Assembly: GCA_900315055.1 (NCBI GenBank)
Contig: OMXP01000005.1
Coordinates: 1 to 64,000 of the forward strand
DNA: 64,000 bases
Reading direction: 5' to 3'
DNA from: an uncultured Lachnospiraceae bacterium
GTDB taxonomy: Bacteria; Bacillota; Clostridia; Lachnospirales; Lachnospiraceae
This document shows, piece by piece, positions 38,524 to 40,092 of the stretch (its first letter is position 1; each line of letters starts with the position of its first letter). Both the position numbers and the translations under genes were made by a program. Under the pieces are notes generated by a model. That model made no database searches. It had not been told where the DNA came from and worked only from the letters and a program-made list of their open reading frames with translations.

Positions 38524-38561
38524 TCCGTGCAGGCTGCACGGAAAATCCCGCATTGCGGGAT
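38524..38561. repeat. Two adjacent perfect hairpins
   Basis: TCCGTGCA/TGCACGGA (38524-38531 with 38535-38542) and ATCCCGC/GCGGGAT (38545-38551 with 38555-38561), separated by AA. Neither is followed by a T run on either strand, so they are not standard terminators. Confidence 0.5.
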
Positions 38562-38639
38562 CCTGCCCTCCTGATGGTCCGGAACCGGAAAGATGCGCCT
38601 GCAGGCAAAATATGGGAATCTGCGGAAAATCGGCTTTTC

Positions 38640-38694
38640 AAAACTTGCAGATATGCGTAATTTCTGATTTTAAAAACTTGCAGATCTGCGGAAT
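38640..38694. promoter_or_regulatory. Direct repeat with 33-base spacing upstream of the ATPase gene
   Basis: AAAACTTGCAGATATGCGTAAT (38640-38661) and AAAACTTGCAGATCTGCGGAAT (38673-38694) differ at two of 22 positions. A partial copy, ATCTGCGGAA, lies at 38618-38627. The repeat ends 54 bases before the proposed TTG start, where operator sites would be expected; three helical turns of spacing suggests a protein binding on one face. Confidence 0.5.
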
Positions 38695-38748: not shown

Positions 38749-40092
38749 TTGGTTTTCAGGCGCAAAATTTATGACCGGCTGCTTTCGTGGAAGAAAGAAA
38801 GGCAGGGGAAAACAGCTCTGCTGATCGAGGGGGCAGGGCGGGTCGGAAAGTCTACCATTGTGGAAGAATTTGCCAGAAAGGAATACCGGTCCTATATCCT
38901 GATTGATTTCTCTCTGGTGTCCAGCCAGGTGACCGATCTGTTCGATGATCTGACGAACCTGGATTTCCTGTTTCTTGGCCTGCAGGCAATCTTTCAAGTT
39001 GACCTCCACGAAAGAGAATCTCTGATCATTTTCGACGAAGTCGAGTTCTGTCCGAGAGCCAGACAGGCCATTAAGGCACTGGTGAAAGATCATCGCTATG
39101 ATTACATCGAGACCGGGTCTTTTGTCTCCATCCGGAAAAATGTCCGGGACATTCTCATTCCCAGTGAAGAAGAGCGGATCCGGATGTATCCGATGGATTT
39201 CGAGGAATTTTCCCTCGCCGTGAACGGAAACGACTGCAGCATGCTGAGAAAGTTTTATGATCTGAAGGTGGCACTGGGGCTGGCTCATCGAAATGTAATG
39301 CGTGAATTCCAGCTGTACATGCTGGTCGGCGGCATGCCGCAGGCCGTGCAGGAGTACCTGGATTCCAATAATTTCCGCATGGTGGACGAGGTGAAACGGG
39401 AAATCATTCGTCTGTATGAGTCAGACCTGAACAGGATTGATCCGAGCGGAAGCATCTCCCGGCTTTATGATCAGATCCCGGCGCAGCTTTCTGGAAAGAA
39501 AACCCGCTATCAGATTTCTTCCGTTCTGCCGACAAGGAGAGCCTCAGATCCCTAAACCGCTAAACTGATCGCCGAACTGGAAGATTCCAAAACGGTTCTG
39601 ATTGCCCATCAGGTCGATGATCCGAAAGTCGGTCTTTCCTATACGGAAGATCCGAATTATTACAAGATCTACTGCGCGGACACCGGCCTGTTCACAACAC
39701 TGATGTTCAGGGACAAATCCTACACGGATAATGTCATCTACCGGTAGCTCCTGTCTGACAGGCTGCCGGCAAATCTGGGATTTTTGTTTGAGAATGTGGT
39801 CGCACAGACATTTGCATCCTGCGGACACAGGCTGTACTACCATACCTGGAAAGACGGGCAGAGCAGCACTGCATATGAAGTCGATTTCCTGCTGGCAGAG
39901 GGGAAGAAAATCTGCCCCGTGGAAGTAAAGTCGTCCGCCTACAGGACTCATGCATCGATTGACGCCTTCGCAAAACGCTACTCCTCAAGAACCGGCAGCA
40001 GGTATCTCATTTATACGAAAGATTATGCCAAAGGACAGGATCTGATCTGCCTTCCGGTCTGCATGGTCCAGTTTCTTGCAGAGGATCTCTGA
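38749..40092 (+). pseudogene. AAA ATPase with DUF4143-type C-terminus, interrupted by two in-frame stops
   Basis: The likely start is TTG at 38749, because GGGAGG (38735-38740) overlaps the nearby GTG at 38740 and sits eight bases before the TTG; related proteins I know also start MVF.RK. The Walker A motif GAGRVGKST is at 28-36 and the Walker B stretch SLIIFDE at about 91-97. TAA at 39553 (codon 269) and TAG at 39745 (codon 333) interrupt the frame. Coding sequence continues in the same frame between and after them: 'ELEDSKTVLIAHQVDDP', 'YYKIYCADTGLFTTL', then 'NLGFLFENVVAQTF' and the nuclease-like 'EVDFLLAEGKKICPVEVKS', ending at 40092. Without the stops it would be about 447 aa. Family function is poorly known. 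Confidence 0.85.

Follow-up and report, generated by a model that had tools for sequence, protein, structure and literature searches.

A probable pseudogene of a PDC-S01-type ATPase-nuclease in a Lachnospiraceae genome, and the phased repeat arrays found upstream of its relatives

Why should a gene that carries two in-frame stop codons remain open, and recognizable, on both sides of each? The question is raised by a locus of an uncultured Lachnospiraceae bacterium, which we examined within a window of 64,000 nucleotides (the whole stretch of DNA analysed, contig OMXP01000005.1). The original prediction, made from the sequence, offered three answers: that the gene was inactivated very recently, that sequencing introduced two errors, or that the stops are read through. 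We consider these, and a fourth in which the truncated product is retained for a purpose of its own, and then turn to a repeat array upstream of the gene and its relatives.

The interrupted frame and its protein family

The frame comprises 447 codons on the plus strand (38749–40092), from a TTG start (ATG in most homologues) that follows the motif GGGAGG to a natural stop at 40090–40092. It holds exactly two internal stops, a TAA at codon 269 (39553–39555) and a TAG at codon 333 (39745–39747); both had been predicted to interrupt an AAA/DUF4143-type gene, and both are present in the assembly. The first 268 codons (38749–39552) are predicted to encode a STAND/AAA-like ATPase domain and the start of a winged helix, and the Pfam profile AAA_14 (71.9–74.2 bits against a cut-off of 27) matches 5' of the first stop. 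With stops read as X, DUF4143 scores 65.4 bits (cut-off 28.1) in a match that spans the second stop. The C-terminal part (39748–40089) retains, by frame translation, Pfam and homologue alignment, a nuclease-like EVDF...PVEVK motif, and DUF4143 matches lie on either side of the TAG, bearing out the earlier statement that the nuclease-like C-terminus is kept beyond the stops. NCBIfam profiles gave no match to the pseudogene, and a search of solved structures by sequence gave none either.

Read in the same way, the gene matches over its full length the PADLOC models of PDC-S01, a single-gene phage-defence candidate, from which it differs in being broken: PDLC04792 (E = 1.9e-88, residues 3–445 of 447 on model positions 2–435 of 452) and PDLC04786 (E = 6.9e-87). 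In the sections of the source consulted, PDC-S01 is described as joining an ATPase to a PD-(D/E)XK domain and as the fourth commonest defence across prokaryotes, and experiments are said to be pending for most PDCs, which are phage-defence candidates (PMC12988326). In the consulted part of a second source it is the top individual locus by frequency in rumen genomes (PMC13356809).

The intact homologue L127 was modelled with AlphaFold2 from its own and 59 other sequences (pLDDT 90.9). The model places a nucleotide-binding domain first, followed by helical and winged-helix parts and then by a nuclease-like domain that carries E-x-D and E-V-K motifs. Its top fold match is the archaeal Walker-type ATPase PABY2304 (2qen; Z 16.6, rmsd 4.0, 263 residues aligned), and it also matches SSO1545, another such ATPase (2fna; Z 14.8, rmsd 4.9, 269 aligned), CED-4 (Z 14.8, rmsd 5.1, 279 aligned), Avs5 (Z 12.1, rmsd 5.5, 258 aligned) and plant NLRs, with ORC/Cdc6 and AAA+ proteins at lower Z; fold families missing from these lists of matches may still apply. 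The likeness to STAND/NB-ARC proteins and the archaeal ATPases is one of fold, but sequence identity is just 8–18%, and the archaeal ATPase, CED-4, NLR and Avs5 matches scarcely cover the C-terminal nuclease part. We read the winged helix in the model as running from short helices at residues 236–249 through a hairpin at 282–308, with a helix at 266–278 between them. The TAA corresponds to residue 268, within that helix, so that translation would stop inside the winged helix and the nuclease half would not be made. In the ancestor of the gene, a nucleotide-binding domain of STAND-like type would have been followed by a winged helix and, at the C-terminus, by a nuclease domain resembling PD-(D/E)XK.

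Our comparison set consists of 113 distinct homologues, each of at least 430 residues. They align with the window gene over its full length, reaching the end of the frame rather than ending by codon 269, and carry sense codons in place of both stops. An internal stop occurs in one of them, a single gene present as two entries (L028 and L096), at codon 132; its four-copy 33-nt array, of the kind described below, is intact. A conserved programmed stop was considered and rejected, because the one-stop entries recorded for many matches proved, in those checked, to be natural end stops, that gene being the exception.

The closest homologues are about 60% identical and come from the same genus, the same family, other Firmicutes and Bacteroidales, a taxonomic scatter that suggests horizontal spread. 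A plasmid search returned 59 records with relatives, every one below 60% identity; thus the family is also plasmid-borne, with no close copy among them. A viral origin was rejected, IMG/VR having given three loci at only 28% identity. The source genome (3.12 Mb in 145 contigs) holds five further DUF4143 genes, none with internal stops. In 62 genomes of the genus, the genes that flank the window copy lie on separate contigs or far apart wherever both are present, and no empty site is definable. At about 60% identity to the closest homologue, moreover, strain-level comparison cannot date the lesions.

The pseudogene sits alone within an exopolysaccharide-type cluster, flanked by two exopolysaccharide genes, which from their sequences we take to be a UDP-sugar dehydrogenase-like gene and an epimerase-like gene. 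Much of the window from 12000 to 61000, mainly on the minus strand, belongs to this cluster, with a pyruvyl transferase, glycosyltransferases and an ABC transporter.

Damage beyond the two stops

The stops are not the only lesions. Between alignment anchors on either side of the first, the window gene has 28 residues (stop included), against 26 in 113 of 113 homologues. This private net insertion of 6 nt falls, by the homologue alignment, in a region (39547–39561, plus strand) that includes the TAA, though its exact borders cannot be placed. The claim that no frameshift or deletion is visible therefore stands insofar as the net frame is kept, but the insertion had been overlooked. Likewise, the proposal that each stop arose by one substitution fits the TAG, whose column is Lys in 93 of the 113 homologues; for the TAA it is open to doubt, since that codon, given its place at the indel, need not be a plain substitution.

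Conserved motifs had also been called intact. The Walker A GK(S/T), the Walker B D-E and the motifs 3' of the stops are indeed kept. The gene nevertheless departs from all 113 homologues at three positions where these are invariant: Arg-30 to Gly beside Walker A, Gln-99 to Glu beside Walker B, and Leu-125 to Phe. All three fall in the ATPase part. Among the other 113 sequences, 102 break no invariant column and 11 break one; none breaks more than one. The branch length of the window gene predicts 0.34 such breaks, against the three seen (Poisson P = 0.005, binomial P = 0.008). With less strict definitions the excess fades. Of columns at least 95% conserved, 6 of 87 are changed, the joint highest count among 114 sequences, against 2.7 expected (P = 0.053, borderline); at 90% or more, 10 are changed against 6.6 expected (P = 0.13, not significant). 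The conserved-column residual of the window gene is unmatched by any other leaf of 58. Taken together, these counts are good evidence for relaxed constraint beyond the stops, though it rests on few residues. The promoter is weak as well, its best sigma-70-like match being 7 of 12 positions, the lowest class, shared by only 2 of 79 arrays.

These lesions bear on the alternatives to inactivation. Two errors of sequencing or assembly, in a gene that is really intact and working, would agree with a frame that is otherwise open and with a draft assembly of 145 contigs; the 6-nt indel and the three changed invariant codons, however, would each need independent errors, and two isolated errors do not explain the promoter lesion either. 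We consider such errors very unlikely. Contamination by Illumina adapter at the first stop was examined separately and rejected, the adapter having no match there within three mismatches.

A second alternative is that the N-terminal product of 268 residues has been kept as a nuclease-free ATPase, for example as a dominant-negative regulator. The start region, the Shine-Dalgarno-like GGGAGG and the upstream array are all retained, as this would require, but the fragment carries all three lost invariant residues, including the neighbours of Walker A and Walker B, and its best match to a promoter ranks in the lowest class. This seems very unlikely. Thus, the indel, the changes in the ATPase part and the weak promoter together argue that neither two sequencing errors nor a useful N-terminal fragment explains the gene.

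Finally, programmed readthrough or stop suppression could yield the full protein, and the DUF4143 match does persist behind each stop. Against this, the two stops differ in type and are not conserved, the corresponding positions being ordinary sense codons in the 113 homologues, and a protein made in this way would still lack the invariant ATPase residues. Nor is there a stop-reading tRNA among the 45 tRNA genes of the genome: 44 were typed by ARAGORN, none with such an anticodon, and the last, cut by a contig end, is by manual reading a tRNA for Ser (anticodon GGA). Both TAA and TAG also terminate other long open reading frames; 44 frames of at least 250 amino acids in the window end in TGA (24), TAA (15) or TAG (5), in a mechanical, largely non-overlapping list that includes some antisense frames and the pseudogene's own first stop. 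Readthrough is thus disfavoured, and we think it extremely improbable.

It is therefore very probable, on the alignments described here, that the gene is a pseudogene of a PDC-S01-type defence-candidate ATPase, and that its decay has reached an early to intermediate stage. The original prediction was right to propose inactivation, but "very recent" was too strong for a gene with a 6-nt indel, three lost invariant residues and a promoter match of 7/12. A random substitution in this gene yields a stop in 3.4% of cases; two stops correspond to about 59 neutral substitutions (95% interval 7 to 214), and a single one, if the TAA arrived with the indel, to about 30. A dN/dS analysis by parts of the gene was uninformative, synonymous sites being saturated (pS 0.66–0.77 in pairs that include the window gene). 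We infer that the five other DUF4143 copies in the genome may have made the broken copy dispensable.

By itself, the broken gene, a pseudogene from a very common family of defence candidates, is ordinary, since defence genes are often gained and lost. The useful part of the locus is the array that precedes it.

Phased repeats upstream of the gene and its clade

A repeat search found three copies of a unit upstream of the pseudogene on the plus strand, each beginning 33 nt after the one before: a diverged first copy at 38612–38627 (16-nt core; 38607–38627 in a 21-nt form), a second at 38645–38660 (38640–38660) and a third at 38678–38693 (38673–38693). Successive units are 75% identical, which ranks 12 from the lowest among 79 arrays, and the window array may be decaying as well. 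Exact matches to the unit in the whole genome are confined to its own array; with two mismatches there are 11 elsewhere, against 4 for a reversed control. An Rfam search with the array gave no match. The descriptions of PDC-S01, in the portions consulted, mention no upstream phased array, whereas the window gene has one.

Similar arrays precede most of the relatives. In the 200 nt upstream of the start codon, the best lag of a direct repeat among 115 sequences, the window included, is 33 in 72, 34 in 11, 32 in 3 and 66 in 9, and the repeat reaches P ≤ 0.05 in 100 of the 115 (40 shuffles each). A score of at least 14 at lags of 32–34 was obtained for 82 of 115, versus 14 of 300 control upstream regions sampled from 372. 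By a strict test (a 16-nt unit, 70% identity, a period of 32–34), three or more copies are found in 75 of the 113 homologues, compared with 8 of 263 control reading frames (396 minus 133 family members). All eight control matches belong to opposite-strand frames that start 181–280 nt from the start of a family gene and face the same array. When periods from 20 to 50 were scanned, three-copy arrays in the homologues had periods of 33 (63 sequences), 34 (13), 23 (4) and 22 (1) and no others; periods of 23 and 33–34 are one helix turn apart.

Across 117 sequences, the arrays have three copies in 59, four in 19, five in 1 and two in 31, with no second copy in 7. In arrays of at least three copies, the last begins about 51 nt (median) 5' of the start codon. 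Successive units are 87% identical, compared with 47% for the spacers, a difference favoured by the choice of the best 16 nt as the unit. Clustered by unit, the 79 arrays form 24 groups, two of which contain 45 of the arrays, so the sequences are not independent. The relatives thus share the spacing seen in the window but have different units in each group. A sigma-70-like promoter matching at least 10 of 12 positions occurs in 34 of the 79 arrays, and in 28 of these 34, by manual count, the -10 box begins 14–24 nt past a unit start (modulo 33), that is, directly behind a unit, which then fills the spacer between -35 and -10. In some homologues several copies lie 3' of the likely -10 box and hence are transcribed.

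The other copies in the source genome have arrays of their own, at 33 nt (C85, with three copies; C98; and C83, weakly), 32 nt (C56) and 23 nt (C131), and the units are all different. As in the window copy, genome matches to the unit of the C85 paralogue are restricted to its own array. A significant repeat was found for 31 of 42 more distant or own copies (40 hand-picked at about 27–34% identity, plus C131 and C98), in 28 of these at 31–35, 64–68 or at least 97 nt. A broader distribution was rejected: in a phylum-wide sample of DUF4143 genes, three copies at 32–34 nt occur in 0 of 24 loci over the cut-off (four further loci below it being excluded), at 23 nt in 2 and at 40 nt in 1. The array therefore marks one clade of the family, not all DUF4143 genes. 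Three-copy arrays at 23 nt, one helix turn shorter than 33 nt, were seen in the source genome (C131:1517–2011, L002) and at L284 and L285.

Possible roles of the array

Two types of function could be served by such an array. First, it could act as an autoregulatory operator, with the gene's own protein or a tightly linked factor as its ligand. A spacing of 33 nt, about three helix turns, would place bound subunits on one face of the DNA. The gene-specific units, the lack of exact copies elsewhere for the two units searched, the helix phasing and the overlap with the promoter together make the gene's own winged-helix protein the favoured binding partner. Counted against an operator is the absence of the array from most DUF4143 genes of other families. 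When covariation of the protein with the unit was mapped by sliding window, no clear peak emerged, and the overall correlation (rho 0.37) is one that phylogeny alone could give. On balance, we hold the assignment as a putative operator with about even confidence.

Second, the array could be bound by a host factor, or could work at the RNA level as an element of the leader. This would suit those homologues in which several copies, lying past the likely -10 box, are transcribed. But a host factor would not readily account for units that vary between gene copies of one genome, or for the two searched units matching exactly only in their own arrays; helix-phased spacings of 33–34 and 23 nt fit DNA binding, and Rfam gave no match. 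We regard this second type of function as possible, though doubtful.

Returning to the operator, a more far-reaching proposal can be made, if only tentatively. The PDC-S01-type ATPase-nucleases of this clade might be self-contained DNA-recognizing defence proteins, each binding a private, diversifying array in the promoter of its own gene, with ~16-nt units set at intervals of three helix turns. The bound oligomer would repress the gene and stay on this "home" DNA until infection disturbs it, and the window copy would be such a pair in decay. If this is true, unit and protein would diversify together, allowing several copies per genome without cross-talk.

A partial analogy is offered by RptR of a type I restriction-modification island, where, according to the part of the source consulted, three promoter repeats are bound by the defence locus's own repressor (PMC12255303). 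The same part describes those repeats as 9 bp long (TTTAGCTAA), lying within 27 bp, with a single conserved motif and a small dedicated repressor (PMC12255303). The analogy is not exact: measured against that description, the arrays of the window clade have units of ~16 nt at a spacing of 33–34 nt that differ from gene to gene, and a separate gene for a small regulator was not seen. TAGCTA palindromes of the RptR type are also missing from the window units at 38612, 38645 and 38678.

In the open-licence literature searched, we found no description of repeats upstream of DUF4143 or PDC-S01 genes, which does not prove novelty, and no paper on the trigger or target of PDC-S01. As far as that search extends, the clade-wide phased array is undescribed, and it is testable. 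It offers a concrete DNA ligand for PDC-S01, among the commonest of defence candidates, and lets one ask whether PDC-S01 proteins regulate themselves and how co-resident copies avoid cross-talk.

Two short perfect inverted repeats with 1-nt loops (38524–38542 and 38545–38561) lie between the array and the minus-strand dehydrogenase-like gene.
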